Assembly: GCF_009914315.1 (NCBI RefSeq) | Contig: NZ_CP042596.1 | Coordinates: 4,340,001-4,404,000, forward strand | From: Granulicella sp. WH15 | GTDB lineage: Bacteria > Acidobacteriota > Terriglobia > Terriglobales > Acidobacteriaceae | Length of the DNA stretch: 64,000 nucleotides | Direction: 5' to 3' | Part shown: positions 9,652 to 63,035 of the stretch, piece by piece | How the letters are laid out: each line of letters opens with the position of its first letter | Position numbering within the stretch: the first letter of the stretch is position 1 | Program-made: the position numbers and the translations under genes | Notes under the pieces: model-generated | Told to the model about the DNA's origin: nothing | What the model saw: only the letters and a program-made list of their open reading frames with translations | Databases searched by the model: none

Positions 9652-9889
9652 ACGCGAAGCGTCCAAGACCGCACGAAGTGCCGCCCGCCCGGCGCGAGGG
9701 CGCTGTTGCCTGTTCTTTTGGTTGTCATTCAGGAGCGAATCTGCTTCCGCTTTTGTCGTTATTCCTGAGGTATGCTTCCTTCAAAAACTGCAAAGACGTC
9801 CTGACGGACGGTCCTCCTACGCGGAGAGCGGGCGTTTGCACGCCTTTTTACTGCTTCGCGTGCTCCTCCCGTTGGTCGGAAACAAAGAT
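9652..9889. repeat. composite intergenic repeat
   Basis: A chain of modules found elsewhere in the window: the GCAC-GAA-GTGC hairpin core with its CCGCCCGCCCGG tail (hairpin at 9671-9681), a segment related to GAGCGAATCTGCTTCCG (shared with 53190 and 62990), the TGAGGTATGCTTCCTTC piece, the reverse of the GGCGTGCAAACGCCC module (about 9800-9863), and half of the CCGTTGGTCGG hairpin. It fills the gap between convergent genes. The region is otherwise non-coding; short open frames through it are not conserved. Confidence 0.85.
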
Positions 9890-9892
9890 CCT

Positions 9893-11206
9893 CTAAGCCA
9901 CGGAAGACTGCTCTTCCTGCTCCGTGGCCGGTGGTCCGCTCAGCCGCTCCAGCGTACGCAGTCCGGGGAAGAGACGCATCCAGCACAGCGCAATCAAAAT
10001 GCTCCCAACGCCGCCGATGATCGTGGCCGGAACGATCCCGAACCAGGAGGCCGTGACGCCGGATTCGAACTCGCCGAGTTGGTTGGATGTGCCGATAAAG
10101 AGCGCATTGACCGCGCTGACGCGGCCGCGCATAGCGTCTGGAGTCTCTAACTGGACCAGCGACGAGCGGACGACGACGCTCACCACATCCGCCGCGCCCA
10201 GAACGCAGAGAATCGCCATCGAGAGCAGGACTGAACGTGAAAGAGCAAAGCCGATTGTGGCCAGTCCAAAGACGATGACGGCGGTGAACATGCGGTGTCC
10301 GGCACGGCTGCGGATAGGGTGCCGGGCCAGAAAGATGGAGGTGCTGAGCGCACCGATGGCCGGGGAGAGTCGCAGCAGGCCCAACCCCCAGGGGCCGGTG
10401 TGCAGTATGTCGCGGGCGTAGGCGGGCAACAGCGCCGTTGCCCCTCCGAGCAGAACCACGAAGAGGTCGAGCGAGATGGCTCCGAGGATGTTCTTGCGGG
10501 CCCGGATGTAGTGGATGCCGGAGAAGATAGAGCTGGCCGTGGCGGCGGGCTTGGCCTCTGCACGGCGGCGCGGGCGGATGCCTGAGGAGAGGATCGAGGC
10601 AGTGGCGTAGAGGCAGGCGCAAAGCGCGTAGGGGATGTGCGCGCCGAGGGCGTAGAGCAGGCCGCCCAGTGCCGGGCCGACGATGGTGGCGCTCTGGTTG
10701 GCCGAAGACGACCAGGCGATAGCGGCGGGAACTTTCGATTCCTCCACCAAGCCGGGGACCATCGCCTGGGTTGAAGGCGTCTCGAAGGCGCGGCAGGCTC
10801 CGACCGCCGCTACGGCGCAGAAGATGCCCACCGGATGGAGCCAGTGGAAGTAGCTGGAGACCGCGAGCAGCGCGGCAGTGGAGCACTCGACCACCTGGCA
10901 GATACTGATGATGGTCTTGCGGTTGAAACGGTCGGCGACGTGGCCGACGACCAGCATCAGCAGCAGCATGGGCGTGAACTGCACCAGCCCCACCATGCCC
11001 AGCGCAAAGGTGCTGTGAGTGAGAGCGTAGACCTGCCAGCCGATGGCAACGCCAAACATCTGGAAGGACATGGTCGAGCAGATGCGAGCCATCCAGAAGC
11101 GGCGGTAAGAGGGTTCGCGAAAGACAGAGCTGGAGTCCACTGGGTCTATTATCGCCGTCCCGCCGCCGTTCAAGGAAGGCTCCCCGGATAAAACGGAAAG
11201 AGGCAC
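9893..11206 (-). CDS. MFS transporter of the DHA3/enterobactin-exporter type
   Basis: A 437-aa membrane protein with about 12 predicted helices. The REPSYRRFWMARICSTMSFQMFGVAIGWQVY start (core FREPSYRRFW), the GHVADRFNRKTIIS loop 2-3 motif, and FETPSTQAMVPGLV in helix 5 place it in the MFS_3/EntS-like group of exporters (siderophores, macrolides, other drugs). The substrate is unknown. The longest frame begins at a GTG at 11206, which lies inside the recA terminator stem; a GTG at 11140 just before DSSSVFREP is an alternative that would leave the terminator outside the gene. It is followed by a repeat region and stands as a single gene. Confidence 0.85.
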   Translation of the reverse strand: MPLSVLSGEPSLNGGGTAIIDPVDSSSVFREPSYRRFWMARICSTMSFQMFGVAIGWQVYALTHSTFALGMVGLVQFTPMLLLMLVVGHVADRFNRKTIISICQVVECSTAALLAVSSYFHWLHPVGIFCAVAAVGACRAFETPSTQAMVPGLVEESKVPAAIAWSSSANQSATIVGPALGGLLYALGAHIPYALCACLYATASILSSGIRPRRRAEAKPAATASSIFSGIHYIRARKNILGAISLDLFVVLLGGATALLPAYARDILHTGPWGLGLLRLSPAIGALSTSIFLARHPIRSRAGHRMFTAVIVFGLATIGFALSRSVLLSMAILCVLGAADVVSVVVRSSLVQLETPDAMRGRVSAVNALFIGTSNQLGEFESGVTASWFGIVPATIIGGVGSILIALCWMRLFPGLRTLERLSGPPATEQEEQSSVA

Positions 11207-11261
11207 GGATCAAATCGGAACCGGAAGTATCTTCGGTCCCATCTTGATCCGTGCCTCTTCC
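11196..11261 (-). terminator. intrinsic terminator after recA
   Basis: A 16-bp perfect stem: AAGAGGCACGGATCAA (11198-11213) pairs with TTGATCCGTGCCTCTT (11244-11259). The 30-nt spacer can itself fold (CCGGAAG ... CTTCGG). Read on the minus strand the stem is followed by TTTCCGTTTT. It lies 12-14 bp past the recA stop. Confidence 0.8.
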
Positions 11262-11272
11262 CTGCTGCGGAT

Positions 11273-12340
<1,068 letters not shown>

Positions 12341-12521
12341 GTGAACTTGTCTCCCAATCCCTGATGCGAATGTGTGCTGCGAATATGTTGCCATCCATTA
12401 GAGGATGAGTCAGAACGAAGTCTAGCACCGATTCAGAGAAAAGCAAATAAAAGGCGAAAGAAAGGTGCCAATTCGGGAACCGTGCCCTCTCTCATGCCTT
12501 GACATGAAAATTTAGCCTCCC

Positions 12522-13277
12522 TCATGGACGATGCGGGACAATCTTGATCTCAAAGACGCTAGGCCACTGCTTGCCGGTGACGAAGAGGCGGTCGTGTTGG
12601 GCGTCGTAGGCGATGCCGTTGAGGACCGCCTCGGCGTTGCCCCGCTGGCCCTCGGGCAGCAGCCCTGTCAGGTCGATCCAGGCGATGACGTGGCCGTCAG
12701 CGGGGGAGATGCGGGCGATGCGGTCCGTGTGCCACACATTGGCGTAGATCTCGCCGTGGATGAACTCCAGCTCGTTGAGACGGTCGATGCTCTGCCTGCC
12801 GTCCCGGACGACGACATGGCGGGTCTCGGCGAAGGTGTTGGGGTCGCGGAAGCGCAGCGTGGAGGAGCCGTCGCTGGTGATGATCTCGCGGGCCGTGCGG
12901 GTCATCCCCCAGCCCTCGCCGGTGTAGGCGAACTGCTTCAACAGGCGCAGGCTGAAGCGGTCGTAGACGAAGCAGGTGTGCTCGTTCCAGGTCCACTCGT
13001 AGAGGTTTGACCCCCAGTCCACGATGCCCTCGCCGAAGTACTGCTGGGGCAGGTCGCGGCGCTGGGTCGGCTGGCCGGTCGCGGGGTCGATGGCCAGGAC
13101 GGCGGAGTGGCCGTTGAGGCCGGTGCCCTCGTAGAACTGGCCGTTGAGATAGAGAAAGCCCTCGGTGTAGCTGTCGGTGGAGTGCGGGTAGGTGGCCACG
13201 ACCTTATAGCCATCCACTGGAGCAGCAGCAAAGGCAGGGCCGGGCAGCAATGCAAGGAAGAGGGCAAGTATCCGCAT
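12522..13277 (-). CDS. glutaminyl-peptide cyclotransferase
   Basis: A 251-aa exported protein of the plant/bacterial glutamine cyclotransferase family (PF05096), a five-bladed propeller that converts N-terminal Gln of peptides to pyroglutamate. The signal peptide is FLALLPGPAFAA. Family hallmarks: YTEGFLYLNGQFYEGTGLNG, NLYEWTWNEHTCFVYD, GEGWGMT and NELEFIHGEIYANVW; quoted parts agree in order with known members. It starts with ATG three bases after the stop of thyX, so it is the downstream gene of a thyX transcript. Confidence 0.9.
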   Translation of the reverse strand: MRILALFLALLPGPAFAAAPVDGYKVVATYPHSTDSYTEGFLYLNGQFYEGTGLNGHSAVLAIDPATGQPTQRRDLPQQYFGEGIVDWGSNLYEWTWNEHTCFVYDRFSLRLLKQFAYTGEGWGMTRTAREIITSDGSSTLRFRDPNTFAETRHVVVRDGRQSIDRLNELEFIHGEIYANVWHTDRIARISPADGHVIAWIDLTGLLPEGQRGNAEAVLNGIAYDAQHDRLFVTGKQWPSVFEIKIVPHRP

Positions 13278-13280
13278 AGG

Positions 13281-14885
13281 CTACCGTTTCAGCAGGTCGA
13301 CCGGCTCCCACACATCGTCGATGCGGAAGAGCGGGGCGAGCGCGGGGTGCTGGCGTTTGACCGCGAGATACATCTCCCAGGCCACGCGGCGGTAGCTGAA
13401 GTGGCCCGCGATGCCTGAGCGCAGCTCCGAGATGTAGACGGCCTCGGCGAGGTCCATCTTGAACATGGCGCGGCAGCGCGTGCCCAGCGGCAGCAGGTAC
13501 TGGGACGATTGCGCGGCCTCGGGAGCGCCGGAGTCGCGCAGGCTGCGGTAGGCGGCGAAGGCCGCGTCCATGGCGGCGCGGTACGGCTGTTCAAGCCCGG
13601 CCTCGGCGAGCGTGGGCTGGCCGGGGCAGATGGGCTCGTCGTAGCCGTGGAGGTCGGTGAAGCCCTGGAGGAGCTGCGTGCACTTGCGGTGGCGGTGCAT
13701 GTCGCGGAAGCCGCCGATGTCCATGAGGATGTCGAAACGGAGGCTGTGCCCAGAGCTGAAGCCGCGGAGCAGCTCGTCGTGGCGGCCGCGCGAGCGGGTC
13801 ATGGTGGCAACGATCTCGGTGAGGCGCGCAGAGGGCAACGCGGCGACGTTCGAGCGGAGCTGGCGGTATCCGTAGTGCGCGTGCGGGTAGAGGAGCGAGG
13901 TCGCCAGCTCGACCTCCAGCGGCTCGTCGCCGTCGAGGAGATCGACGATGGGAGTGGAGTCGATGGCCTGGGTGCCCATCAACTCCGCTACCAACTCCGC
14001 GCCGAGGGTGCGGCTCTCGGCGAGGTAGGGGTTGGGCACGGCATACTTGACCAGCGTGGGGGCGGTGTTGATGGGGCGGAGGAGGGTCTCGGCGGCCTTG
14101 GCTCCGAGCGCCGGGTCGAGCGCCGTGATCTCGTCGCAGAGCTGCTGCATGACGGGCTGCTGGACGTTCCACGCTGGCCCGGTGGCGGCCACGCGGAGTT
14201 GCTCGGCGATGGTGCGTATCTCGGCGAACTCGCTAGTGAGGAGCCGCGATACCTGCGTCTCCAGCGTGCGGGCGTTGACGATCTGGCCGAGCGACGTATT
14301 GGTCGCCAGCGGCAGCAGGTAGCGGGCGACGTCGAAGGCGCGGGCCTTCAGGGTGCGCTCCCAGGCGTCGGGCTTCATGGCGCGATCGCTGGTGGGATCG
14401 GGCAGCGGGATGGCTAGCTTGAGGGCTTCGAGCATCCCCGCGCTGACAGCGTCGTAGGAATGGAAGAGAGACTCGACGGCGGCGGTGTAGGCGGCGGTCT
14501 CCGCACCCAGCGCGGGGGTGAACCAGCCGGAGCGGCGGAAGTTCTGGTAGCGGGTGGAGCGCTCCTGGCCGTCCCAGCGCTGCTCGTCGACCAGCGCGAT
14601 GGCCGCCAGCAGCGACAGGCGCTCGATGGCGAAGGGGATGTGCGCCAGATCGGCGATGGAGCGGTGGCCGTACTGGAAGTAGAAGGTGTTGAGGAACTGC
14701 TCGGCGCGCTGCGAACTGATCTCGGCCAGCGACTCGCGCATGCTGAGCGACGAGCGGGAGTACTTGGCCATGGCGTAGGCCAGAACCTCGGGGTCCGCGC
14801 CGTGGATGGCGTAGACGTCGGTTACGGGGGGCTGGGCTGGACAGGTCTCGGCGGGGCTGGTCGGGATCGGGATCGCGTCGGGCAT
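13281..14885 (-). CDS. thyX: FAD-dependent thymidylate synthase, double-length (tandem ThyX domains)
   Basis: A 534-aa protein, twice the usual 220-260 aa. Both halves look like a ThyX fold. Half 1 has GHRSIADLAHIPFAIE (about 73-88), then QERSTRYQNF (107-116), the counterpart of the nucleotide-binding NEQSxRY, and ARYLLP ... EIRTIA near 187-226. Half 2 has SGHSLRFDI (378-386), GGFRDMHRHRKCTQ with the RHR at 398-400, and YLLPLGTRCRAMFKMD with SELRSG near 463-491. The RHR signature thus survives only in half 2 and the QxRSxRY part is best in half 1, so the two halves may form one set of sites. It makes dTMP from dUMP using methylene-folate, FAD and NADPH. No thyA is in the window. Confidence 0.85.
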   Translation of the reverse strand: MPDAIPIPTSPAETCPAQPPVTDVYAIHGADPEVLAYAMAKYSRSSLSMRESLAEISSQRAEQFLNTFYFQYGHRSIADLAHIPFAIERLSLLAAIALVDEQRWDGQERSTRYQNFRRSGWFTPALGAETAAYTAAVESLFHSYDAVSAGMLEALKLAIPLPDPTSDRAMKPDAWERTLKARAFDVARYLLPLATNTSLGQIVNARTLETQVSRLLTSEFAEIRTIAEQLRVAATGPAWNVQQPVMQQLCDEITALDPALGAKAAETLLRPINTAPTLVKYAVPNPYLAESRTLGAELVAELMGTQAIDSTPIVDLLDGDEPLEVELATSLLYPHAHYGYRQLRSNVAALPSARLTEIVATMTRSRGRHDELLRGFSSGHSLRFDILMDIGGFRDMHRHRKCTQLLQGFTDLHGYDEPICPGQPTLAEAGLEQPYRAAMDAAFAAYRSLRDSGAPEAAQSSQYLLPLGTRCRAMFKMDLAEAVYISELRSGIAGHFSYRRVAWEMYLAVKRQHPALAPLFRIDDVWEPVDLLKR

Positions 14886-14939
14886 GGGTAGGCCAAGGAT
14901 AAATCGGACGGTTCTGCAAAATGTCTTCGATTCGCCAAT

Positions 14940-14968
14940 TCGTTCAAGTCCCGTCCGGTTCGTATAAT
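14940..14968 (+). promoter_or_regulatory. possible promoter of fabG (perfect TATAAT, near-leaderless)
   Basis: A perfect TATAAT lies at 14963-14968, with only a weak -35 (GTTCAA/TCGTTC region around 14940-14947). A start site 7 bases downstream would fall at or next to the ATG at 14976, giving an almost leaderless mRNA, which fits the absence of a ribosome site. Confidence 0.35.
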
Positions 14969-14975
14969 GCTTGGG

Positions 14976-15722
14976 ATGGACTCATTGGCTGGACGAATTG
15001 CATTGGTAACAGGCGCCTCGCAGGGCATTGGACGGGCGTGCGCGCTGGCACTGGCGGCGGCGGGCGCGCAGGTCGCGCTGGCGGCCCGCAACACCGACAA
15101 GCTGGCCGAGGTGGCCGCGGAGATCGAAGCCGCGGGCGGCGTGGCCAAGGCGTTCGCGCTGGACATCTCCAGCGAGGAGTCGATCAAGGCCGGCGCGAAG
15201 GAAGTCATCGAGCACTTCGGCCGGGTCGAGATCCTGGTGAACAACGCCGGGATTACTCGCGACATCCTCTCCATGAGGATGAAGAGAAAAGACTGGGACG
15301 ACGTGCTCACGACCAACCTGACGGGCGCGTTTCTGCTGACGCAGGCATGCATGTCGTCGATGCTGAAGGGGCGCTGGGGCCGGATCATCAACATCACCTC
15401 CGTGGTGGGGGAGACCGGGCAGGCGGGGCAAGCAAACTACGCCGCGTCGAAGGCCGGGCTGATCGGGCTGACGAAGTCTCTGGCCCGCGAGCTGGCCAGC
15501 CGCACGATTACGGTGAACGCCGTGGCTCCGGGCTACATTGAGACGCCGATGACGGCGGTCCTGACCGACGAGCAGCGCATGGCGATGATGGGGCAGGTGC
15601 CGCTGGCGAGGCCGGGCACCGACAAGGAGATTGCGGCGGCGGTGGCGTTTCTGGCCTCGGAGAGCGCAGCGTACATCACCGGCCACACGCTGGACGTAAA
15701 CGGCGGCATGTACATGAATTAG
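14976..15722 (+). CDS. fabG: 3-oxoacyl-[acyl-carrier-protein] reductase
   Basis: A 248-aa classical short-chain dehydrogenase that reduces 3-oxoacyl-ACP with NADPH in fatty acid elongation. It has TGASQGIGRA for cofactor binding, NNAGITRD, the catalytic Ser in NITSVVGETGQAGQ, YAASKAG with the Tyr/Lys pair, and the FabG-type ending FLASESAAYITGHTLDVNGGMYM. The ATG at 14976 gives the normal length; an ATG three codons earlier overlaps the TATAAT box. It is not next to acpP, fabD or fabF here. The stop TAG runs straight into a repeat hairpin. Confidence 0.92.
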   Translation: MDSLAGRIALVTGASQGIGRACALALAAAGAQVALAARNTDKLAEVAAEIEAAGGVAKAFALDISSEESIKAGAKEVIEHFGRVEILVNNAGITRDILSMRMKRKDWDDVLTTNLTGAFLLTQACMSSMLKGRWGRIINITSVVGETGQAGQANYAASKAGLIGLTKSLARELASRTITVNAVAPGYIETPMTAVLTDEQRMAMMGQVPLARPGTDKEIAAAVAFLASESAAYITGHTLDVNGGMYMN

Positions 15723-16021
15723 TACTTCGTACCATTCTCGGGGGTACTTCGTACCGTTCTCGGGGCGGTATGGGTGAGTTAGCAGTATGGGGCCTTCCGT
15801 TGGTCGGCAGCGAGCATTGTTTGTTTCCGACCAACGGGAGGACCACGCGAAGCAGTAAAAAGGCGTGTAAACGCCCGCCCGCCGCGCAGGCGGCCCGTCC
15901 GGCAGGACAGGTTTGTGGCAGAAACTAGGTCGGGCCTTCAGCCCTTGTCTTGCCTTTATGCCTGGTCACCTAGGGCGTTGCCCTAGTCTGGTATAGAGTG
16001 CGCCTTCAGCGCTTTCCGGAG
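15720..16021. repeat. composite intergenic repeat
   Basis: Two tandem GTAC-TTC-GTAC hairpins (15722-15732 and 15744-15754), the GGCGGTATGGG arm, a complete CCGTTGGTCGG ... CCGACCAACGG hairpin (about 15788-15830), the AAAAAGGCGTGTAAACGCCC module, a GGTCGGGCCTTCAGCCC piece, and a CCTAGGGCGTTGCCCTAG hairpin module with TGGTATAGAG that recurs at 62748. This fills almost the entire gap before the GNAT gene; the first hairpin overlaps the last two bases of the fabG stop. Confidence 0.87.
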
Positions 16022-16746: not shown

Positions 16747-17152
16747 GGCTGATATGCAAATAGTTCCTTCCGTGCAGGCCGAGGCGTCCGTGAAGTCGAT
16801 CTCGATGAATATTGGTGGCACGATTCGCGACTATCGCCTGCAAAAGGGGATGTCGCAGGGTGATATCGAAAAACGAACCGGCCTGCTGCGCTGCTACCTC
16901 TCGCGCGTGGAGAACGGTCACACCGTCCCGTCGCTGGAGACGTTGCAGAAGATCGCGGGCGCACTGGACTTGCAGCTCTCGCAGTTCTTTGCCGAGGACC
17001 CGGTGGGCCGGGAGGTCTCGTCGCTGAACCTGAGCGAGGAGCAGATCCGCTTCCTGACGCAGGTGCAGCGCTACTCGGCGCACCTGTCGGACAGCGACCG
17101 TCGGCTGCTGCTGGCGATGGTGAGGAAGTTCGCCTCCAGCTCGATGAGCTAG
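16745..17152 (+). CDS. XRE-family helix-turn-helix regulator
   Basis: A 135-aa protein with a Cro/cI-type HTH at about residues 25-78: IRDYRLQKGMSQGDIEKRTGLLRCYLSRVENGHTVPSLETL, of which GMSQGDIEKRTG and YLSRVENG are the two core helices. The C-terminal part is a short helical extension (VQRYSAHLSDSDRRLLLAMVRKF) that may dimerise. There is no ligand or protease domain. The start is uncertain; the ATG at 16745 was preferred over one at 16754. The stop TAG overlaps the first base of a repeat hairpin. Targets unknown; a direct repeat at the start codon hints at autoregulation. Confidence 0.85.
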   Translation: MADMQIVPSVQAEASVKSISMNIGGTIRDYRLQKGMSQGDIEKRTGLLRCYLSRVENGHTVPSLETLQKIAGALDLQLSQFFAEDPVGREVSSLNLSEEQIRFLTQVQRYSAHLSDSDRRLLLAMVRKFASSSMS

Positions 17153-17252
17153 CACTTCGTGCCGCTCTCGGGGCTGTATGGGGAAATGATCTTCTGAGGG
17201 CCTCCCGTTGGTCGGCAGCGAACATCTTTTCCCGACCAGCGGGAAGATGGCG
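17150..17252. repeat. palindromic intergenic repeat
   Basis: The GCAC-TTC-GTGC hairpin (17152-17162), the GGGGCTGTATGGGG arm, CTTCTGAGGGCC and the CCCGTTGGTCGG ... CCGACCAGCGGG hairpin. It fills the convergent gap between the XRE and rhomboid genes and abuts both stops. Confidence 0.87.
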
Positions 17253-18989: not shown

Positions 18990-19057
18990 CACGCGAAGCG
19001 TCGAGAACGGTACGAAGTACCGCCCGCCCGGCGCTAGGGCGCTTTTGCCGTTGCTTT
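18990..19057. repeat. hairpin-core intergenic repeat
   Basis: CGCGAAGCGTCGAGAACG, then the GTAC-GAA-GTAC hairpin (19010-19020) and the CGCCCGCCCGGCGCTAGGGC tail ending in a T-rich run, two bases before the stop of the MBL gene. The rest of the 340-base gap (18720-18989) holds no recognisable gene; an open frame from 18769 with GGAGG in front was rejected because it runs through this repeat and into the opposite gene. Confidence 0.85.
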
Positions 19058-20089: not shown

Positions 20090-20150
20090 ACAAAAGCGCC
20101 CTCGCGCCGGGCGGGCAGCACTTCGTGCGGTTCTCGACGCTTCGCGTGCT
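20090..20150. repeat. hairpin-core intergenic repeat
   Basis: AAAAGCGCCCTCGCGCCGGG, the GCAC-TTC-GTGC hairpin (20118-20128), then GGTTCTCGACGCTTCGCGTG, just beyond the 3' end of the receiver-domain gene. Confidence 0.85.
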
Positions 20151-23294: not shown

Positions 23295-23366
23295 GGCACT
23301 TCGTGCGGTTCTCGGGGCGGTATGGGAGGGATGATCTTCTTGGGGCCTTCCGTTGGTCGGCAGTCA
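23294..23366. repeat. palindromic intergenic repeat, left half
   Basis: GCAC-TTC-GTGC hairpin (23296-23306), GGGGCGGTATGGGAGGG arm, CTTCTTGGGGCC and the left half of the CCGTTGGTCGG hairpin; the right half is absent. It spans the convergent gap between the SDR and PP2C genes. Confidence 0.87.
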
Positions 23367-25141: not shown

Positions 25142-25206
25142 CTCACCCAAGCCGCCCCGAGAACCGTACGAAGTACCGCCCGCCCGGCGTGAGGGCGCTT
25201 TTAATC
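25109..25206. repeat. palindromic intergenic repeat, right half, overlapping a CDS end
   Basis: TGCCGACCAGCGGGAGGCCC, CTCAGAAAATAACTCACCC, CGCCCCGAGAACC, the GTAC-GAA-GTAC hairpin (25166-25176) and the CCGCCCGCCCGGCGTGAGGG tail. The first 33 bases are in frame with the methyltransferase and end it. It closes the convergent gap to pgsA. Confidence 0.88.
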
Positions 25207-25925: not shown

Positions 25926-26172
25926 CCGTACGCACTTCGTGCCGTTCTCGGGGCGGTATGGGAGGGATCATCTTCTGAGGTCCTCCCGTTGGTCGGAAGC
26001 GAAAATCTTTCTCCCGGCCAACGGGAGGACCACACGAAGCAGTAAAAAGGCGTGTGAACGCCCGCCCCGCGCGTAGCAGGCCCGTCCGGCAGGACGTCTT
26101 TAGAAGCAACAACAAAGACGCCCTAACGCCGGGCGGGCGGCACTTCGTGCGGTTCTCGAGGCTTCGCGTGAA
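25926..26172. repeat. composite intergenic repeat
   Basis: GCAC-TTC-GTGC hairpin (25932-25942), GGGGCGGTATGGGAGGG arm, the complete CTCCCGTTGGTCGG ... CGGCCAACGGGAG hairpin, the AAAAAGGCGTGTGAACGCCC module, GGCCCGTCCGGCAGGAC, an AACAACAAAG linker and a second core hairpin (26140-26150) in the same orientation. Spans the entire gap between pgsA and the glutamate dehydrogenase gene. Confidence 0.88.
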
Positions 26173-27657: not shown

Positions 27658-27724
27658 ACAACAACAAAAGCGTCCTCACGCCGGACGGGCGGCACTTCGT
27701 GCGGTTCTCGACGCTTCGCGTGAA
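27658..27724. repeat. hairpin-core intergenic repeat in a divergent promoter gap
   Basis: AACAACAAAAGCGTCCTCACG, GCAC-TTC-GTGC hairpin (27692-27702), GGTTCTCGACGCTTCGCGTG. It lies between the divergent starts of glutamate dehydrogenase and trpE, 68 bp from trpE, one of only three copies in a 5'-5' gap. Confidence 0.85.
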
Positions 27725-29303: not shown

Positions 29304-29309
29304 CCTTTA

Positions 29310-29608
29310 CGCGAAGCGTCGAGAACCGCACGAAGTGCCGCCCGCCCGGCGCTAGGGCGCTTTTGCCGTTGCTTCTAGGGTAGGTCGGGCTTTAGCCCCG
29401 ACATCCAGACTTGCCTACGAATTGGGCTTTAGCCCCTGAGGTATGCTTTCTTTGCCTCGAGACGTAGTGCTGAGGGAAAAACCCATGTCTCAGAATCGAG
29501 GCATGGGGCACCCGGATTTGTGGCCGGGAGAAAAAGCATACCTCGGGGGCTAAAGCCCGCATCTGTGGTGAGTTTTAATGTCCGGGCTAAAGCCCGGACC
29601 TACCCCAA
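29310..29608. repeat. composite intergenic repeat
   Basis: Core hairpin GCAC-GAA-GTGC (29328-29338) and its GCGCTAGGGCGCTTTTGCCG tail, a GGTCGGGCTTTAGCCCCGAC hairpin, CTGAGGTATGCTTTC, the ACCCATGTCTCAGAATCG module (pairing with CGAGGCATGGG), AAAGCATACCTCGGGGGC, and a perfect 20-nt palindrome GTCCGGGCTAAAGCCCGGAC (29580-29599). Fills the 368-base convergent gap between trpE and the AraC gene; 29609-29671 is an AAC-rich linker with nothing recognised. Confidence 0.88.
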
Positions 29609-29671
29609 AAACAACGACAACAACAACGGCCTGTCGCTCCGAAAACAAAGCAACGCCGGTGGATGCGCACA

Positions 29672-30896: not shown

Positions 30897-30972
30897 TAAA
30901 AAACAAAAGCAACAGCGCCCTAGCGCCGGGCGGGCGCCACTTCGTGGGGTTTTGGACGCTTCGCGTGTTTCT
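30897..30972. repeat. hairpin-core intergenic repeat (CCAC/GTGG variant)
   Basis: AAAACAAAAGCAACAGCGCC, then CTAGCGCCGGGCGGGCG, the hairpin CCAC-TTC-GTGG (30937-30947) and GGACGCTTCGCGTG. Both arms have changed compared with the usual GCAC/GTGC, keeping the pairing. Confidence 0.87.
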
Positions 30973-32555: not shown

Positions 32556-32582
32556 AGCGCCGAGAACCCCACGAAGTGGCTG
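32556..32582. repeat. isolated repeat hairpin core (CCAC/GTGG variant)
   Basis: CGCCGAGAACC followed by CCAC-GAA-GTGG (32569-32579) in the 187-base gap before efp. Only this core is left. The rest of the gap has a direct repeat GAAGCTGATTT (about 32651 and 32663) followed by AAGCTTC, which could fold. Confidence 0.7.
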
Positions 32583-42047: not shown

Positions 42048-42110
42048 CAGCAAAAGCGCCCTCACGCCGGGCGGGCGGCACTTCGTGCGGTACTGGACGC
42101 TGCGCGTATT
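42048..42110. repeat. hairpin-core intergenic repeat
   Basis: AACAGCAAAAGCGCCCTCACG, GCAC-TTC-GTGC hairpin (42078-42088), GGTACTGGACGCTGCGCGT (slightly diverged), just after the TonB receptor. Confidence 0.87.
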
Positions 42111-44689: not shown

Positions 44690-44872
44690 CTCATTCCCGA
44701 CCAACGAGAGGGCACTTCGTGCCGTTCTCGGGGCGGTATAGGGAAACAATCTTCTGAGGGCCTCCCGCTGGTCGGCAGCGAGAATTTTTCTTTCCGACCA
44801 ACGGGAGGACAATGCGAAGCCGAGAACCGCACGAAGTGCCGCCAGCCCGGCGTGAGGGCGCTTTTAATGTCT
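44690..44872. repeat. long palindromic repeat, complete copy
   Basis: Outer hairpins GCAC-TTC-GTGC (44712-44722) and GCAC-GAA-GTGC (44829-44839) with GTTCTCGG and CCGAGAAC next to them; inner stem CCTCCCGCTGGTCGG ... CCGACCAACGGGAGG. A fragment CCCGACCAACGAGAGG precedes it. The CGCCAGCCCGGCGTGAGGGC tail ends at the glmM stop. Confidence 0.88.
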
Positions 44873-48227: not shown

Positions 48228-48405
48228 ATAGTGCTTCGCACCGTTCCTGGGGGCACTTCGTACTGTTCTCGGGGCGTCATGGGGAAGTGATTTTCTGAGG
48301 GCCTTCCGCTGGTCGGCAGCGAACATTGTTTATTCCCGACCGACAGGAGGGCCATGGGTGATGATTTGCCCACGCGACCCCGAGAACGGTACGAAGTACT
48401 TTGCG
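48228..48405. repeat. long palindromic repeat, complete copy (divergent gap)
   Basis: A hairpin GTGC-TTC-GCAC (48231-48241, a fourth paired version), then a copy from about 48253 to 48399: GTTCTCGGGGCGTCATGGGG facing the CGAGAACGGTAC arm, CTTCCGCTGGTCGGCAGCG against CCGACCGACAGGAGGGCC, and GTAC-GAA-GTAC at 48389-48399. It lies between divergent genes, 20 bp from the ion-channel start. Confidence 0.88.
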
Positions 48406-49625: not shown

Positions 49626-49796
49626 GGCACTTCGGCACTTCGTGCGGTTCTCGGGGGAGCATGGGCGGGATGATCTTCTGAGGGCCTTCCGTTGGTCGGC
49701 AGCGAGCATTTTTGATCCCGATCCACGCGAAGCAATCAAAGGCGTGTGAACGCCCGCCCTCCGCGTAGGAGGCCCGTCCGGCAGGACAGTCTTTCT
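49624..49796. repeat. composite intergenic repeat
   Basis: A partly duplicated core (GGCACTTCGGCACTTCGTGC) with the perfect hairpin at 49635-49645, GGGGGAGCATGGGCGGG arm, CTTCTGAGGGCC, left half of the CCGTTGGTCGG hairpin with a degenerated right half, and the CAAAGGCGTGTGAACGCCC module with GGCCCGTCCGGCAGGAC. It fills the convergent gap to the GT87 gene. Confidence 0.87.
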
Positions 49797-51564: not shown

Positions 51565-51703
51565 GCGAAGCGGGCGGCACTTCGTGCGGTTCTCGGCTTC
51601 GCGTGGCCTCCGTTGGTCGGGATTGAGCTGCTCGTTGCCGACCAGCGGGAGGCCCTCAGAAGCCCGCTCCCCCATACCTCCCCGAGAACGGTACGAAGTA
51701 CAC
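51565..51703. repeat. long palindromic repeat, complete copy (divergent gap)
   Basis: GCAC-TTC-GTGC (51577-51587) followed by GGTTCTCGG; inner stem GGCCTCCGTTGGTCGGG with CCGACCAGCGGGAGGCCC; outer right arm CCCGAGAACG with GTAC-GAA-GTAC (51691-51701). It lies 13 bp from the tyrS start. Confidence 0.88.
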
Positions 51704-52949: not shown

Positions 52950-53290
52950 GGCTCGTTGGTCGTAAACAGACTTTTGTTTCCGACCAACGGGAGGACCACG
53001 CGAAGCAGTAAAAAGGCGTGCAAACGCCCGCCCCGCGCAGGAGGCCCGTCCGGCAGGACAGTCTTTGTAGCTTTTGAAGAAAGCATACCTCGGGGGCTAA
53101 AGCCCACTTCTATGGTTGATTTGAATGTCCGGGCTAAAGCCCGGACCTGCCTCAGAAGCAAAAGCAAAAACAACGGCAAAGACAGAAGCAGATTCCTCCG
53201 CTTCGCTCCTGAATGACAACCAAGAAAACAAGCAACAGCAACAACGCCCTCACGCCGGGGCACTTCGTGCGGTCTTGGACGCCCGCGTGT
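52950..53290. repeat. composite intergenic repeat, longest chain
   Basis: In order: a CTCGTTGGTCG ... CCGACCAACGGGAGG hairpin, the AAAAAGGCGTGCAAACGCCC module, GGCCCGTCCGGCAGGACAG, GAAAGCATACCTCGGGGGC, the palindrome GTCCGGGCTAAAGCCCGGAC (53127-53146), a CAAAAACAACGGCAAAG linker, GAAGCAGATTCCTCCGCTTC, TGAATGACAACC, and the GCAC-TTC-GTGC hairpin (53260-53270). This fills the whole 383-base gap; no gene seen. Confidence 0.88.
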
Positions 53291-54149: not shown

Positions 54150-54183
54150 TCGCGCGAAGCGTCGAGAACGGTACGAAGTACTG
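54150..54183. repeat. hairpin-core intergenic repeat, short copy
   Basis: CGCGCGAAGCGTCGAGAACG with GTAC-GAA-GTAC (54171-54181); the GC-rich tail is missing. 54184-54242 reads TGCATTTGCGGATGACGGG and is not repeat-like; nothing more is recognised. Confidence 0.82.
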
Positions 54184-57301: not shown

Positions 57302-57302
57302 G

Positions 57303-57472
57303 GCACTTCAACGGGATTATCCGCACCAGCGGGAGGACCGCGCGAAGCTTTAAAAAGGCGTGCAAACGCCCGCCCCGCGCGTAGCAGGCCCGTCCGGCAG
57401 GACAAAAGCAAAAGCGCCCTCACGCCGGGCGGGCGGCACTTCGTGCGGTTCTCGACGCTTCGCGTGAAAACT
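57303..57472. repeat. composite intergenic repeat
   Basis: A degraded GGCACTTCAACGGG, CGCACCAGCGGGAGGACCGC, the TAAAAAGGCGTGCAAACGCC module, GGCCCGTCCGGCAGGAC, AAAAGCGCCCTCACGCCGGG, and GCAC-TTC-GTGC (57436-57446) with GGTTCTCGACGCTTCGCGTG. It takes up the convergent gap up to the terminator. Confidence 0.87.
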
Positions 57473-57493: not shown

Positions 57494-57524
57494 AAGAGGG
57501 CTGGCGAAGTTCGCCAGCCCTCTT
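57494..57524 (-). terminator. intrinsic terminator of the Gly/Tyr-rich protein gene
   Basis: AAGAGGGCTGGCG and CGCCAGCCCTCTT form a 13-bp stem with a short AAGTT loop, then TCTTTT on the minus strand and TGATGTTTTT on the plus strand. Could serve both strands. Confidence 0.8.
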
Positions 57525-57536
57525 GATGTTTTTGAT

Positions 57537-58034: not shown

Positions 58035-58206
58035 AAGCCCTCCTGCGGGGCGAAACCGGCGTTCAAGCTCGGCTTAGTTCGGATCCAGGGTCTTGGTCTG
58101 CATCCTTGTTTATTAGAACCGCGATTCGTGGAGAAAGTTGCGCAGATTGCGGAGATGTGATCCGCAGAAGGGCTAAAACTGTACGCCAGAACGGTACCAT
58201 AGACAG

Positions 58207-59490
58207 ATGGCCTTGCGAATCGAGCGGATGAAGTACGGCGGGGCCGGTGTGGGAGTCGATGCCACGGGTGCGGAGACGGACGTGCCCTTTACCCTGCCGG
58301 GAGAGTTGGTGGATCTGGCGGTTACTGATTCTGTGCAGGTTGTCGAAGCCTCCGCGCAGCGTGTCGAACCGGAGTGCCGCCACTTCGGCAGTTGTGGAGG
58401 CTGTCAGTACCAGCACGCCAGCTATCCCGCCCAGGTCGAGATCAAGTCCGGAATCCTGCGGGAGATTCTCTCCCAGGCAGGTGCGGGGCCGGTTCCGGAG
58501 ATAGAACTTCGCACCGGCGAGCCGTGGGGATACCGGAATCGCGTGCGGATGCGGGTGCAGGCGCTGGATGGGCAACTCCGCGTCGGGCACAGCCGCCGGT
58601 CGTCGAACGAGTTTCTACCTATAGAAGAGTGCCCCATCGCCGCCCCGGTACTGTGGCGGGCAGCGGAGGCATTGATACAACTGGCCGCCGAGGACGCCGT
58701 TGTACGCCGTTGGCTGGAGCATGTGGCCGAGGTGGAGTTTTTCTGCTCCGCCGACCAGGCGCGGGTGCAGATGGCACTCTTCCTGCGGGATGCGGATGTG
58801 GCTCGGAATGAGCCGTTTACGGTCTTCTGCGAGAAGGTGAAGGCTCTGCTGCCGGAGATGGTCGGGGCCAACGCCGAGATCGACCCGGAGCTGAGCCGAC
58901 GCGCCCGCAGGAGCTGGCCGGGAGCAACGTGGGGAGCAGCAGGGCTGGTCTACGAGGCCGCCGGAGCCAAGTATTGGGTGAGCCGTGGAGCGTTCTTCCA
59001 GGTGAACCGCTTTCTGGTCGACGAGATGGTGGCTCTGGCGACGGCGGGGCGGAGCGGCCAGTTGGCGTGGGATCTCTTTGCCGGAGTGGGTTTGTTTTCG
59101 CGGGGGCTGGCCGGGGGCTTTGCCGAGGTGGTGGCCGTGGAGGGCAACCCGGTGGCCGCTGGGGACCTGGCGAAGCTGGCGAAGAATGTGAAGGCGGTCG
59201 AGGGCGCGACGGTCGATTTTCTGCGCCGGGCAGTGCTGGAGCGGGAACGGCCGGAGTTGATCGTGATGGACCCGCCACGCGCCGGGGCCGGGGCCGAAGG
59301 GTGCGGGCTGCTGGGGCGGATCGGCGCTCCGGCGCTGGTTTACGTCTCCTGCGACCCGGTGACGCTGGGGCGGGATCTTGCGGTGCTGGCGCGGGCGGGA
59401 TACGGGATGGAGCGGGTGTGGATGGTGGATATGTTTCCCCAGACCTTCCATCTGGAGACGGTGGTCTGGCTGCGCAAGGACGCGGCTTAG
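58207..59490 (+). CDS. class I SAM-dependent RNA (uracil-5-)-methyltransferase, RlmD/TrmA type
   Basis: A 427-aa RNA m5U methyltransferase. Four Cys bind an Fe-S cluster: C57, C63, C66 (ECRHFGSCGGCQYQ) and C142 (IEECPIAAP). The SAM part has WDLFAGVGLFS and VVAVEGNP; LIVMDPPRAGAG and VYVSCDPVTLGRDL carry the catalytic Cys. No clear TRAM domain is present before the cluster beyond a short start (MKYGGAGVGVD). It methylates a uridine in rRNA or tRNA. The assignment to RlmD or RumB needs a tree. Confidence 0.9.
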   Translation: MALRIERMKYGGAGVGVDATGAETDVPFTLPGELVDLAVTDSVQVVEASAQRVEPECRHFGSCGGCQYQHASYPAQVEIKSGILREILSQAGAGPVPEIELRTGEPWGYRNRVRMRVQALDGQLRVGHSRRSSNEFLPIEECPIAAPVLWRAAEALIQLAAEDAVVRRWLEHVAEVEFFCSADQARVQMALFLRDADVARNEPFTVFCEKVKALLPEMVGANAEIDPELSRRARRSWPGATWGAAGLVYEAAGAKYWVSRGAFFQVNRFLVDEMVALATAGRSGQLAWDLFAGVGLFSRGLAGGFAEVVAVEGNPVAAGDLAKLAKNVKAVEGATVDFLRRAVLERERPELIVMDPPRAGAGAEGCGLLGRIGAPALVYVSCDPVTLGRDLAVLARAGYGMERVWMVDMFPQTFHLETVVWLRKDAA

Positions 59491-59577
59491 TCCCAAATCG
59501 GGAATCGTAGCCGTGTAAATGACTGATCTGCGGCAGGTTTGCGGCTCTGGGGCGTTCGATCCGATGTAAAAGTCGGT

Positions 59578-62292
59578 ATGGCCCGAACAAAGACAGGCGA
59601 CCGGCTGGAGCGGCTGCGATTTCGGCGGGCTCCGCTGGCGGCTGCGGCGGTGTGGTTCGGCGTGGGCGTTGTGCTGGCGCACTTCGTATGGCAGCCGGTG
59701 CTGGTGCTCGTCGTGGCACTGGTGGTGACGGGCGCGTTGGCCGTGGTTGCCCTGGCGACCAGCCCACGCGTGAGCTGGCTGCCGGTCGCGGCGATCTGGA
59801 TCGTCACGGGAGTGGCCGCGGCGGAGTGGCAACCGGGGCCGCCGGACAGCTCGGCCGTCGCGGGCTACGCCGATGGCCTGAGCCGCCGGGTGCTGGGGCG
59901 CGTGACGAGGGTACAGCGGCTTCCGCAGCGCGCCAAGACCGTGGACAACGATAAGGTAGCGCCGTGGGAGGCAGCCGAGGAGGCCGAGCCGGATGCGGAG
60001 CAGGCCGAGTCCGTCGATCTGGCGCTGGAGCAGATAGAGGAAGTGACGCCGGATGTGGCGTCGATGGTGCCAATCAGCGGAGGGGTGCGAAGTACGATTT
60101 ACGCCACTGCTACACAACTGCCGGAGCTGGCCTGCGGCGACCTGGTGGAGATGACCGTGCGGCTGAAGCTGCCGGAGCGGTTTCGCGACCCCGGAGTGTG
60201 GCAGTATGCAGATTACCTGCGCGAACAAGGGATCGGGGCGCGGGCCAGCCTGGCGACGAACCGTCTGCACCGACTAGGAACAGGACCGGCGAGCTGGCAT
60301 TGCCGGGTGGTGGCCGCGCAGGGCTGGGCGGTGGCGCGGCTGGCGGGGTTCGTCGGCTCCGGGCCGAACCGGCGGGTGCCGGGCTGGATGCGGCTGGGCT
60401 CGGCGGACGCGGCGATGCTGGACGCGATGCTCTTCGGCGACCGCGCCGGGCTGAACCGGACGATGCGTACGGGCTTCGAACGCACAGGCTCCTTCCACCT
60501 CTTCGTGGTCTCGGGGCTGCACGTGACGCTGCTGGCCGGGGGAGTCTTCTGGCTGGTGCGGCGGCTGCGCGGTCCGGCGTGGCTGGCGACGCTGGTGACG
60601 ATCGCCTCGGCCACGGGCTACGCGGTGCTGACAGGGTTCGGGCAGCCGGTGACACGGGCGCTGACGATGACGTCGATCTTTCTGCTGGCAAGGCTGTTCT
60701 GGCGCAAGGGGGATTCGATCAACGCATTGGGTGCGGCGGTGCTGGCTATGCTGGTCTGGTCGCCCAAAAGCCTCTTCGAAGCCAGCTTTCAGATGACAGT
60801 GCTGGCGCTGGTCGCCATCGCCGGGATGGCGGCTCCGCTGGGCGAGCGCAGCTTTGGCGGATATGCGAAAGCTACTCGCAACATCTTCGCGGCAGGCGTG
60901 CGCGGTGGCCTGAGCCCGCGCAGGATGCAGTTCCGCGTGATGTTGCAGCTCTGGGGAGAGACCTTTGCCGATGCGTTCGGACGCTGGTCTCGAGGGCTTC
61001 CGGCGCTGGCCGTGCGCTGGGGCCTGCTGGCGATGGAGCTAGCCCTGGTCGGGGTGGTCGCGGAGCTGGTGATGGTGATGCCGATGGCGCTCTACTTCCA
61101 CCGGGCGGCGGTCTTTTCGGTTCCGGCCAACATGGTGGTGATCCCGGTGCTGGCGGTGCTGGCTCCGGCTGCGGTGGCTACCTTTGCGGCGTCACTGGTA
61201 AGCCCGTGGGTGGCGCTCGCGCCCAGCGTGGTGACGGCTCTGCTGCTGCATGGGGTTACGGGGGCGATCGGCCGGATCAGCAGCCTGAGCGTGGCCGATG
61301 TACGGGTGCCGGGACCGGTGTGGTGGGTGGGCGCGCTGGCGGTGTTGGCGTGGATGGCGTGTTGCTGGGCGGTGCGGCGCGGGCGCTGGGGCGCTTGGGT
61401 GACGGCGGCGGCGTTGCCGCTGATTGCCGTGATGGTGCTGTGGCCGGAGAGGCCGCTGACGACGCCGGAGAGGCTGGAGCTGTCGGCCATCGACGTGGGC
61501 CAGGGCGATTCCCTGCTCATTGCAGGCCCGGACGGGCGAACGATGCTGGTGGACGCGGGCGGGCCAGTGGGGCAGCACGGCGTCTCCGAGGTGACGGCCA
61601 GCTACGACGTGGGCGAGGAGGTGGTATCGCCGTACCTGTGGTCGCGGCGGATGCGGCGGCTGGACGTGGTCGTGCTGACCCACGCCCACACCGACCACAT
61701 GGGCGGGATGCCTGCCGTGCTCCGGAACTTTCGTCCGAGGGAGCTTTGGGTGGGAATCGAGCCGGATTCGGCGCAGTTTCGGGCGCTGCTCGAGGAGGCT
61801 CGGGAGCTGGGGATTACGGTGCGGCATCTGCACGCGGGCGAGGGGTTCGTCTGGGGGGAAACGGCGGTTTCGGTTCTGGCTCCGGCTGTGGGTTACGTCA
61901 ACATGGGAGCGCCTAAGAATGACGATTCGGTGGTGCTGCGGCTGGATTTTGGGCGGGGGTCGTTGCTGCTGGAGGGCGACGCCGAGAGGCCGAGCGAGGA
62001 AGCGATGTTGGCCGCCGGGCTGGTAAAGCCGGTGACGGTGCTGAAGGCGGGGCATCATGGCAGCATCACCTCGACCACACCGGAGTTTCTGGCGGCGGCG
62101 GCTCCGCGGGATGCGGTGATTAGCGTGGGCCGGGGTAACAGCTTCGGGCATCCGCGGGGAGAGGTGATCGGGCGGTTTGCGGCGGCGGGGGTGAGGCTCT
62201 ATCGCACGGATGAGTTTGGGTTGACCACGTTTCTGCTGGGGCGGGATGGGACGGTGAAGGAGGTGGTCGGAACCCAGGATGGTTCCCAATAA
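59578..62292 (+). CDS. comEC: DNA internalisation protein ComEC/Rec2
   Basis: A 904-aa inner-membrane protein. An OB-like N-terminal part, DUF4131-like, is followed by the Competence domain with GLHVTLLAGGVFWLVRRLRG and TGFGQPVTRALTMTSIFLLA, then a C-terminal metallo-beta-lactamase-like domain with SAIDVGQGDSLLIAGPDGRT, LTHAHTDHMGGMPAVL and LKAGHHGSITSTTPEF. It forms the transport channel for DNA in natural transformation. The ATG at 59578 is chosen; a TTG at 59539 extends by 13 residues. No other com gene is in the window. Confidence 0.93.
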   Translation: MARTKTGDRLERLRFRRAPLAAAAVWFGVGVVLAHFVWQPVLVLVVALVVTGALAVVALATSPRVSWLPVAAIWIVTGVAAAEWQPGPPDSSAVAGYADGLSRRVLGRVTRVQRLPQRAKTVDNDKVAPWEAAEEAEPDAEQAESVDLALEQIEEVTPDVASMVPISGGVRSTIYATATQLPELACGDLVEMTVRLKLPERFRDPGVWQYADYLREQGIGARASLATNRLHRLGTGPASWHCRVVAAQGWAVARLAGFVGSGPNRRVPGWMRLGSADAAMLDAMLFGDRAGLNRTMRTGFERTGSFHLFVVSGLHVTLLAGGVFWLVRRLRGPAWLATLVTIASATGYAVLTGFGQPVTRALTMTSIFLLARLFWRKGDSINALGAAVLAMLVWSPKSLFEASFQMTVLALVAIAGMAAPLGERSFGGYAKATRNIFAAGVRGGLSPRRMQFRVMLQLWGETFADAFGRWSRGLPALAVRWGLLAMELALVGVVAELVMVMPMALYFHRAAVFSVPANMVVIPVLAVLAPAAVATFAASLVSPWVALAPSVVTALLLHGVTGAIGRISSLSVADVRVPGPVWWVGALAVLAWMACCWAVRRGRWGAWVTAAALPLIAVMVLWPERPLTTPERLELSAIDVGQGDSLLIAGPDGRTMLVDAGGPVGQHGVSEVTASYDVGEEVVSPYLWSRRMRRLDVVVLTHAHTDHMGGMPAVLRNFRPRELWVGIEPDSAQFRALLEEARELGITVRHLHAGEGFVWGETAVSVLAPAVGYVNMGAPKNDDSVVLRLDFGRGSLLLEGDAERPSEEAMLAAGLVKPVTVLKAGHHGSITSTTPEFLAAAAPRDAVISVGRGNSFGHPRGEVIGRFAAAGVRLYRTDEFGLTTFLLGRDGTVKEVVGTQDGSQ

Positions 62293-62346
62293 AGCTTGAC
62301 GGTGCGGCCCCGATGTTGTCTACAGTGTTAACAGGAGGTACATCGC

Positions 62347-62613
62347 GTGGAGATGACTTCGAAGCCGGATGCGAGTGTGGGGGCGGAGGCTCTGGAAGAG
62401 GGGCGGCTGATCCGGCGAATGCAGATGATGATGGGCCTGGTGATGCAGACCATCGCGCAGGACAGCTCGCTGACGATTGATGAGGCTTCGCAGATGATCG
62501 CCGACTCGAAGAAGGCGGCGCTGGCAATGTTTCCGGGGAAAGAGCTGGCCTATGAGATTATCTGGCGGCCGAGGTTTCAGCGGTTGATGCGGGAACGGTT
62601 TCGGATTATGTAG
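62347..62613 (+). CDS. hypothetical protein (88 aa)
   Basis: An 88-aa, mostly helical protein. The GTG start follows AGGAGGTACATC, a very strong ribosome site. It has a Met-rich helix, RRMQMMMGLVMQTIAQD, and a basic C-terminus, RPRFQRLMRERFRIM. It looks like a small regulatory protein. Possible promoter: TTGACG at 62296-62301 and TACAGT at 62321-62326, spaced 19 bp. It follows comEC by 54 bp. Not recognised. Confidence 0.65.
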   Translation: MEMTSKPDASVGAEALEEGRLIRRMQMMMGLVMQTIAQDSSLTIDEASQMIADSKKAALAMFPGKELAYEIIWRPRFQRLMRERFRIM

Positions 62614-62614
62614 A

Positions 62615-63035
62615 AGGCGCTTTTACACAAAGCGTCGAGAACCGCACGAAGTGCCGCCCGCCCGGCGTTAGGGAGTTGTTGCTTCTGGACTCTTCGGGTG
62701 GGATAGGTCGGGCCTTCAGCCCTCTTCTGCCTGCGCGTTCGGTTACCTAGGGCTTCGCCCTAGGCTGGTATAGAGCGCGCCTTCAGCGCTTTTCGGAGGC
62801 ATAGAGCGGTTGTGCCTCGTGGGTGCCCCATGTCTCAGAAGCGAGACCTGGGGCACCCGGATTCGTGGCGGGGGCAAAGAAAGCATACCTCGGGGCTAAA
62901 GCCCGCATCCGTGGTGGATTTTGATGTGCGGGATAAAGCCCGGACGTACCCCAGAAGCAACGACAAAAGCAACAACAAGAGCAAAAACAGAAGCAGATTC
63001 CTCCGCTTCGCTCCTGAATGACAACCAAAAGAACA
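62615..63035. repeat. composite intergenic repeat
   Basis: In order: a core hairpin GCAC-GAA-GTGC (62644-62654) with CGCCCGCCCGGCGTTAGGG, GGTCGGGCCTTCAGCCC, the CCTAGGGCTTCGCCCTAGG hairpin, a GCGCGCCTTCAGCGC module, GTGCCCCATGTCTCAGAAGC with its partner GACCTGGGGCAC, AAAGCATACCTCGGGGC, a diverged GGGATAAAGCCCGGAC, CAAC-rich linkers, and GAAGCAGATTCCTCCGCTTC. Fills the 456-base convergent gap; no gene seen. Confidence 0.88.

Follow-up and report, generated by a model that had tools for sequence, protein, structure and literature searches.

In a stretch of 64,000 nucleotides (nt) from Granulicella sp. WH15, positions 4,340,001-4,404,000 of a single 4.67-Mb contig that starts at dnaA (the window), we find a short repeat of two hairpins that lies outside called genes and, in part of its copies, begins on or directly behind a stop codon. 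We favor, with moderate confidence, the reading that this unit is a horizontally spreading element of the Acidobacteriaceae, similar to repetitive extragenic palindromic (REP) sequences, that is tied to gene 3' ends and probably acts there as RNA. The basic unit consists of a first hairpin (HP1, GYACTTCGTRC, with a 4-bp stem and a TTC loop), a linker, NGTTCTCG, and a second hairpin (HP2, of the ACGCTTCGCGT type, with a stem of 4-7 bp). A strict pattern that includes the linker gives 263 copies genome-wide and, when reversed, none. The first-pass annotation of the window had proposed a repeat family and named rarity elsewhere in the genome as a point that would speak against it; the unit is common there.

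That annotation described an 11-nt hairpin as the whole repeat, which is only half of the unit: HP2, the linker, the flanking modules and the stop-codon register escaped it. The hairpins themselves are all where it placed them. The window holds 26 exact copies in four stem classes (16 GCAC/GTGC, 7 GTAC/GTAC, 2 CCAC/GTGG and 1 GTGC/GCAC), compared to a chance expectation for the four cores of 0.325 per window on average and 3 at most (first-order Markov resample, 40 runs). None of the 26 lies inside a called gene, which agrees with the reported placement between genes or at gene ends (genes were called with a simple in-house caller; coding fraction 0.74 across the sampled stretches). The loop, described as fixed, is so where the linker follows: in 544 kb of the WH15 genome, a non-random draw of stretches of which 16 are contiguous near the origin, 75 perfect hairpins with a 4-bp stem and a 3-nt loop stand one base before GTTCTCG, 74 with a TTC loop and one with CTC, and 148 other GTTCTCG sites have no such hairpin. 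Among all 11-nt hairpins of the window, whatever their flanks, 40 have a TTC or GAA loop, and 14 of these fall outside the 26. HP2 ACGCTTCGCGT has seven exact copies in the window, every one 19 nt from an HP1. The copies are as follows.

9652..9662, minus strand: HP2 ACGCTTCGCGT of copy 9671
9671..9681, minus strand: HP1 core GCACTTCGTGC, eta-core-theta composite
15722..15732, plus strand: HP1 GTACTTCGTAC; its opening G completes the TAG stop of the short-chain-dehydrogenase gene 14967-15722
15744..15754, plus strand: HP1 GTACTTCGTAC, tandem second unit 22 nt past the first, beta composite
17152..17162, plus strand: HP1 GCACTTCGTGC; first G is the final base of a TAG stop
18991..19001, minus strand: HP2 ACGCTTCGCGT of copy 19010
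19010..19020, minus strand: HP1 GTACTTCGTAC, eta-core-theta
20118..20128, plus strand: HP1 GCACTTCGTGC
20137..20147, plus strand: HP2 ACGCTTCGCGT of copy 20118
23296..23306, plus strand: HP1 GCACTTCGTGC, TAG stop 1 nt before
25166..25176, minus strand: HP1 GTACTTCGTAC, eta-core-beta composite, TAA gene stop 32 nt upstream
25932..25942, plus strand: HP1 GCACTTCGTGC, beta composite
26140..26150, plus strand: HP1 GCACTTCGTGC, followed by HP2 variant AGGCTTCGCGT
27692..27702, plus strand: HP1 GCACTTCGTGC, eta hairpin in the CGTCC/GGACG version
27711..27721, plus strand: HP2 ACGCTTCGCGT of copy 27692
29309..29319, minus strand: HP2 ACGCTTCGCGT of copy 29328
29328..29338, minus strand: HP1 GCACTTCGTGC
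30937..30947, plus strand: HP1 CCACTTCGTGG
30956..30966, plus strand: HP2 ACGCTTCGCGT of copy 30937
32569..32579, minus strand: HP1 CCACTTCGTGG
42078..42088, plus strand: HP1 GCACTTCGTGC, followed by HP2 version ACGCTGCGCGT
44712..44722, plus strand: HP1 GCACTTCGTGC, inverted relative to 44829 across a large palindrome (left half)
44829..44839, minus strand: HP1 GCACTTCGTGC, right half of the 44712 pair; its eta module starts 8 nt past the stop of a phosphoglucomutase-family gene
48231..48241, plus strand: HP1 GTGCTTCGCAC, with imperfect copy GCACTTCGTAC next at 48253
48389..48399, minus strand: HP1 GTACTTCGTAC
49635..49645, plus strand: HP1 GCACTTCGTGC, after a TAG stop and partial copy GGCACTTCG
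51577..51587, plus strand: HP1 GCACTTCGTGC, inverted relative to 51691 (left half)
51602..51658, no strand: large palindrome module (family D11) between the paired cores
51691..51701, minus strand: HP1 GTACTTCGTAC, right half of the 51577 pair
53260..53270, plus strand: HP1 GCACTTCGTGC
54171..54181, minus strand: HP1 GTACTTCGTAC, followed by HP2 variant ACGCTTCGCGC
57436..57446, plus strand: HP1 GCACTTCGTGC
57455..57465, plus strand: HP2 ACGCTTCGCGT of copy 57436
62644..62654, minus strand: HP1 GCACTTCGTGC, followed by HP2 variant ACGCTTTGTGT

In WH15 the unit is built into three composites. Eta-core-theta (type A) runs from an A-rich lead through a CGCCC/GGGCG hairpin to HP1, linker and HP2; core-beta joins HP1 and linker to GGGGCGGTATGGG... 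and then a large palindrome, CTCCCGYTGGTCGG...CCGACCAACGGGAGG; and the third composite is eta-core-beta. The eta hairpin is CGCCC/GGGCG in 29 rows and the compensating CGTCC/GGACG in 9, and takes other forms in 13, 10 of them one-arm changes. Inverted HP1 pairs occur in the window at 44712+/44829-, 48231+/48389- and 51577+/51691-; some such pairs flank the large palindrome. Alternating orientation and recurrent modules make these arrays resemble bacterial interspersed mosaic elements (BIMEs). The earlier suggestion of a REP-like or MITE-like (miniature inverted-repeat transposable element) family keeps its first half, by size, number and intergenic place; as to the second, inverted pairs are present, many copies are single, and no target-site duplication is readable because the downstream flanks diverge.

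The register on stop codons is clearest in the core-beta class, where 17 of the 27 copies with a same-strand upstream gene begin -1 to +2 nt from its stop, and in 9 of these 17 the first G of the element doubles as the G of TAG; 20 more copies of the class have an upstream gene on the opposite strand. Of the copies that abut a stop, 18 lack eta (17 beta, 1 delta), and these follow TAG in 16 cases and TAA in 2, compared to 161 TAA, 116 TAG and 89 TGA among all 366 called genes. Part of this skew is built in, since a start at -1 forces TAG; TAG is over-used outside that register as well, in 6 of 8 WH15 copies without eta that start at 0 to +2 (116 of 366 genes overall). In nine eta copies HP1 lies 24-32 nt past the stop, which is TAA eight times and TGA once. 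When at least 80 sense codons are demanded in frame, an in-frame stop at -1 to +2 is found for 13 of 94 WH15 copies (13 of 48 without eta), 27 of 40 same-genus copies (which include orthologous sites from several species), 10 of 28 in a second genus and 12 of 19 viral copies, compared to about 0.010-0.012 per position by chance; the fractions for the genus and viral sets are raised by a prior filter, which removed rows that lacked both HP2 and a stop at -1 to +2.

Several other accounts were rejected. A TA dinucleotide does not appear to be the target, as no constant TA precedes HP1 away from stops and TAA and TGA stops are used too. Readthrough or a coding role was dropped because registers to the stop differ (-1, 0, +1, +2) and a repeat in differing registers cannot encode one peptide. 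For an intrinsic terminator, by eye no T run directly follows HP1, and one follows HP2 in scattered copies only; the rpoC ends that we read have a separate terminator-like hairpin further downstream. Integron attC sites also follow stop codons; the linker GTTCTCG is unlike their GTTRRRY core, and the copies are scattered, with both orientations represented.

The unit was found in 12 of 250 sampled genomes of the family, in three genera. A covariance model (R1), which recovers its own source sequences by construction, matched 15 of the 250 at an E value of 0.001 (6 from the genus of WH15, 5 from genus g32 and, elsewhere, 4 single matches); these counts are floors, as at most 29 candidates were scored per genome under strict filters. 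One of the single matches is genuine: locus L204 (genome G032, the third genus) holds the unit CCACTTCGTGG-CGTTCTCG-ACTCGCTTCGCGAGT directly 3' of a TGA that closes 333 sense codons; the others (L205-L207) show no unit by pattern. The strict pattern matched 10 of 150 family genomes, of which WH15, G031 and G095 remain after seven single matches inside long open frames are taken as chance. With a looser pattern, 23 of 62 genus genomes, WH15 included, were matched, led by WH15 (270), G204 (14) and G164 (12); the looser matches L104, L117, L118 and L123 lie inside long open frames, share one conserved stretch and are probably chance. A 22-mer scan gave Edaphobacter, Granulicella and Acidobacteriaceae KBS 89.

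In congeners the unit, or HP1 with linker, occurs in low copy behind genes assigned by Pfam as rpoC, def, groES, dnaA, dnaN and YebC-family, GatC, BFN-domain and ABC-transporter genes, in places as tandem copies with differing stems; in WH15 it also stands behind rpoC. At polA (Pfam) the WH15 unit starts at the base right after TAA, and the copy is present in this genome only: in congeners, 11 of 11 ends read stop at the same codon and none has the unit (12 were sought; none was fetched for G167). Likewise, 0 of 5 relatives read carry a unit within 130 nt of the phosphoglucomutase-family gene. For rpoC, matched in 57 of the 62 genus genomes, we read 51 ends, 19 with core or core-like sequence and 32 with other sequence. 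The core/other state changes at least 14 times on a 51-tip tree (613 nt), with 7 changes forced by strongly supported branches, and ends that are 96-99% identical have switched. The rpoC state is not stably inherited, whatever the mode of change. At L112 (G201), L163 (G178) and L171 (G181), genes lie between the full rpoC and a second partial rpoC stretch, which reaches the 3' end in G201 and G178; this cargo, judged by eye, is either a 591-aa open reading frame of haloperoxidase/PAP2-like type or a VapBC-like pair. The rpoC 3' end thus looks like a cargo site, and with cargo beside rpoC we dropped the state changes as proof of mobility.

Copies also occur in viral contigs. Two scans of IMG/VR gave 21 and 15 stretches, one common to both, with 37 matches in 26 distinct contexts. 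A perfect HP1 with a detected HP2 is present in 14 of the 26. A stop in any frame falls at -1 to +2 for 8 of the 14; for such any-frame stops we reckon a chance rate of roughly one in five. PHROGs matched 4 of 7 upstream viral proteins (two endolysins, a head closure protein and a head-protease-like protein), and one copy lies 6 nt past its endolysin stop. A 57-nt query found no match in public plasmid and GenBank-phage collections, so the viral evidence comes from the IMG/VR contigs alone.

The paired change of both HP1 arms, reported from the window, extends beyond it. In an alignment (A1) of 44 distinct sequences, namely 27 of 30 reference sequences and 17 hand-picked variants, 98.9% of HP1 cells are paired, a value inflated by relatedness, by the choice of variants and by the collection rule that at least 2 of the 3 outer pairs be formed. 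At pair 2-10, 21 sequences have CG, 21 have UA and 2 are unpaired; at pair 3-9, 38 have AU and 6 have GC; both-sided changes occur in 3 of the 4 pairs. The covariation score, subject to the same inflation, is 0.215 compared to 0.131 in shuffled alignments, and 0 of 500 shuffles reach it. One-arm changes, which would have told against the first-pass annotation, are few. Compensating arms occur at the orthologous rpoC site (GTAC/GTAC, GTGC/GCAC, GCAC/GTGC), and HP2 comes as 34 distinct hairpins of varied stem and length with up to four pair types per stem position; the HP2 script retained paired hairpins only, which selects for pairing, so this variety is no test of it.

That the paired shape is what is maintained is plausible but falls short of proof, and the first-pass annotation's conclusion that compensatory change indicates it is not supported as stated, because templated correction of quasi-palindromes, in which one arm is copied onto the other, would give an equal pattern of paired arm changes. 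Imperfect HP1 stems comprise 3 wobble and 8 non-wobble cases (3 more rows were set aside as probable chance matches), which suggests that wobble is not favored in HP1. It is possible, though we would not expect it, that the covariation is a by-product of such templated repair by strand switching, with shape unselected, an account compatible with the other readings. The excess of non-wobble one-arm changes fits it, as does the tandem array at L135, where GTAC/GTAC, GCAC/GTAC and GCAC/GTGC stand side by side; the 34 HP2 hairpins exceed what single corrections would easily yield, but the paired-only script selects for variety. The covariation data are compatible alike with selection on RNA shape, selection on DNA shape and templated correction. 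Paired arm changes in tiny hairpins thus need a templated-correction control before they are read as shape selection.

We consider it unlikely that the unit is mainly an RNA motif with a function at gene 3' ends, either guarding the stop codon or braking translation termination, that was selected and spread as useful, with mobility incidental. The start at -1 or 0 relative to the stop, common to hosts and viral contigs, the fixed sense orientation behind housekeeping genes, the conserved linker and loop, and the compensating arms at rpoC would all suit such a motif. It is harder to reconcile with the 39 of 62 genus genomes (the total including WH15) that lack a match even to the looser pattern, with the other sequence that occupies the same slot at 32 of 51 rpoC ends, with the 270 matches of WH15 versus 14 in the next highest genome, with an HP1 that does not favor wobble, and with the folded unit, which is not unusually stable.

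A second alternative, which appears improbable, is that the hairpins are short shared sequences for gene-end recombination between phage and host, so that copies travel with cargo by homologous recombination and not as an element of their own. The genes between full and partial rpoC in G201, G178 and G181, the switching among nearly identical rpoC ends and the viral copies are in line with this, and there is a parallel in the promoter early stem-loop (PeSL) cassettes of T4-type phages, short stem-loops between phage genes that are thought to aid module exchange; PeSL cassettes differ from the unit in that they carry an early promoter and are not known to be tied to stop codons. Against it, the unrelated carrier genes share no sequence ahead of the element in the flanks compared, and starts lie 0-2 nt from the stop, so that homology to bring the element there is lacking.

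We think it highly doubtful that the unit is a mobile nucleic-acid element with the translation stop codon itself as its insertion target. TA^G or a position just behind the stop is its commonest start, both in unrelated host genes and in genes of viral contigs. What sets such a register could be some process that acts where translation stops, such as one on an mRNA under termination that is copied back to DNA, and not a target sequence in DNA. RelE-type mRNA interferases cut in the A site at the position that TA^G marks; a route at the RNA level is therefore conceivable, if speculative.

Mobilization of the unit as a REP by a REP-associated tyrosine transposase (RAYT) or IS200-type Y1 transposase of WH15 is very unlikely: its size, copy number, hairpins, mosaics and intergenic place are like those of REPs and BIMEs and the genome has two Y1 genes, but both adjoin another repeat, Acido-Lenti-1, no unit occurs within up to 1.5 kb at any of 31 Y1 loci (29 beyond WH15 and its own two), and no constant GTAG or CGTC foot stands beside the stem. 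A link to such an enzyme, which the first-pass annotation had proposed to look for, is therefore not supported at these loci, a minority of the Y1 matches found in 97 of 120 genomes.

We return to the reading of a horizontally spreading, REP-like element at gene 3' ends. The unit would spread horizontally, with phages as one likely carrier, and would come to lie directly behind stop codons, at the very start of the 3' untranslated region. In that position it would probably form an RNA structure that slows ribosome release or shields the mRNA 3' end, by analogy with E. coli REPs near stops. In WH15 its number would have grown beyond 260, and fusion with other intergenic palindromes would have produced the mosaics. 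Movement may proceed by transposition of a single-stranded DNA hairpin through some enzyme, or by recombination of short gene-end cassettes. For E. coli, it is reported that a REP can lower translation when fewer than 16 nt separate it from the stop codon (excerpt of PMC12306157, citing an earlier study).

Several results weigh against this reading. Helix 2 has no both-sided changes in A1, because the aligner splits its variable stems, and a measure of further pair types stands at 6 versus 7.6, below all shuffles. The scarcity of wobble in HP1 gives no help to an RNA role, and stability above shuffled controls was not seen for one unit version on both strands as DNA and RNA (z -0.88 to +0.62). 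None of 24 type A copies lies within 2 nt of a stop, measured from HP1. Shuffled rpoC labels give 15.7 changes on average, with 110 of 500 as low as 14, and the cargo with a second partial rpoC end means that gene-end recombination can explain part of the spread. Neither a target-site duplication nor an exact 3' boundary of the unit could be shown, and the 31 Y1 loci yielded no mobilizing enzyme. If the unit does move as such, it would represent a REP-like family, present in hosts and viral contigs and so far with no linked transposase, whose insertion register coincides with that of translation termination; in harmless soil bacteria, this would open to testing how orphan REP-like elements move and whether hairpins that abut stops tune termination or mRNA decay genome-wide.

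Among known systems, the unit is closest to REPs and BIMEs, which are short, palindromic, intergenic, mosaic, present in more than 100 copies and often just behind genes (excerpts of PMC12306157 and PMC3733652). A short palindrome in high copy (263) and outside called genes (26 of 26) corresponds to this description. In contrast, the unit has two small hairpins, an HP1 with a TTC triloop, a conserved linker and a start at -1/0 of the stop, occurs in viral contigs as well and lacks a linked Y1 gene among the 31 loci; in place of an unpaired GTAG/CGTC tetranucleotide at the stem end, HP1 is preceded by differing bases (stop codon, CTTCG, GGGG, GGGCG) and has NGTTCTCG on its linker side. We know of no stop-codon register in the double-hairpin elements and repetitive hairpin elements of organelle genomes. 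These elements share with the unit hairpins and dispersal, are presumed mobile, have no known enzyme and differ in belonging to organelles, not bacteria (compare the excerpt of PMC2800124). A literature text search, with most subscription journals outside its scope, did not find three 15-letter pieces of the unit, and Rfam at gathering score gave no match on the unit in the window nor over the rpoC copies in L103 and L112.

Acido-Lenti-1 is, like the unit, a dispersed hairpin repeat of WH15 with a stem that closes a TTC loop; its stem and flank are different, and it is Acido-Lenti-1, not the unit, that adjoins the resident Y1 genes, on both sides in L001 and one side in L002 (Rfam). Similar repeats occur at 4 of the 31 Y1 loci; in G173 (L071) there is one by Rfam and two by motif, and in G158 (L082) three by motif only. 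Rfam lists Acido-Lenti-1 as a small RNA, and it was presented as a candidate RNA (excerpt of PMC2864571); Y1 genes of Acidobacteria are described as flanked by inverted repeats (excerpt of PMC3733652). Acido-Lenti-1 may be a repeat mobilized by Y1 transposases and not a stand-alone RNA gene. The window contains two such features.

62746-62790: Acido-Lenti-1 (RF01687), the sole Rfam match in the window
15964-16021: repeat similar to Acido-Lenti-1

Partial copies, GYACTTCG or GTGCTTCG, recur immediately 5' of a full HP1 (window 49635; L016, L017, L028, L101 and L102; L034, L042 and L045 in G095; L127 in G164; L138 in G182). They look as if a new copy had entered, or slipped, at a point right after CTTCG in an older copy. 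In congeners that have few or no core units, the large palindrome module is itself repeated in high copy (L029, about 6971-7094; G207, G161, G176). By hand count, 58 of 94 GTAC-class copies and 19 of 32 GCAC-C copies lie in the 1.6 Mb around dnaA, which is 34% of the genome; the sampled stretches hold 98 copies in 424 kb near the origin versus 1 in 120 kb far off. Another repeat family (D7), of GGGCTAAAGCCC hairpins with an A-rich AAC/AGC tail, occurs in the window at 29533-29630, 53080-53177 and 62879-62976.

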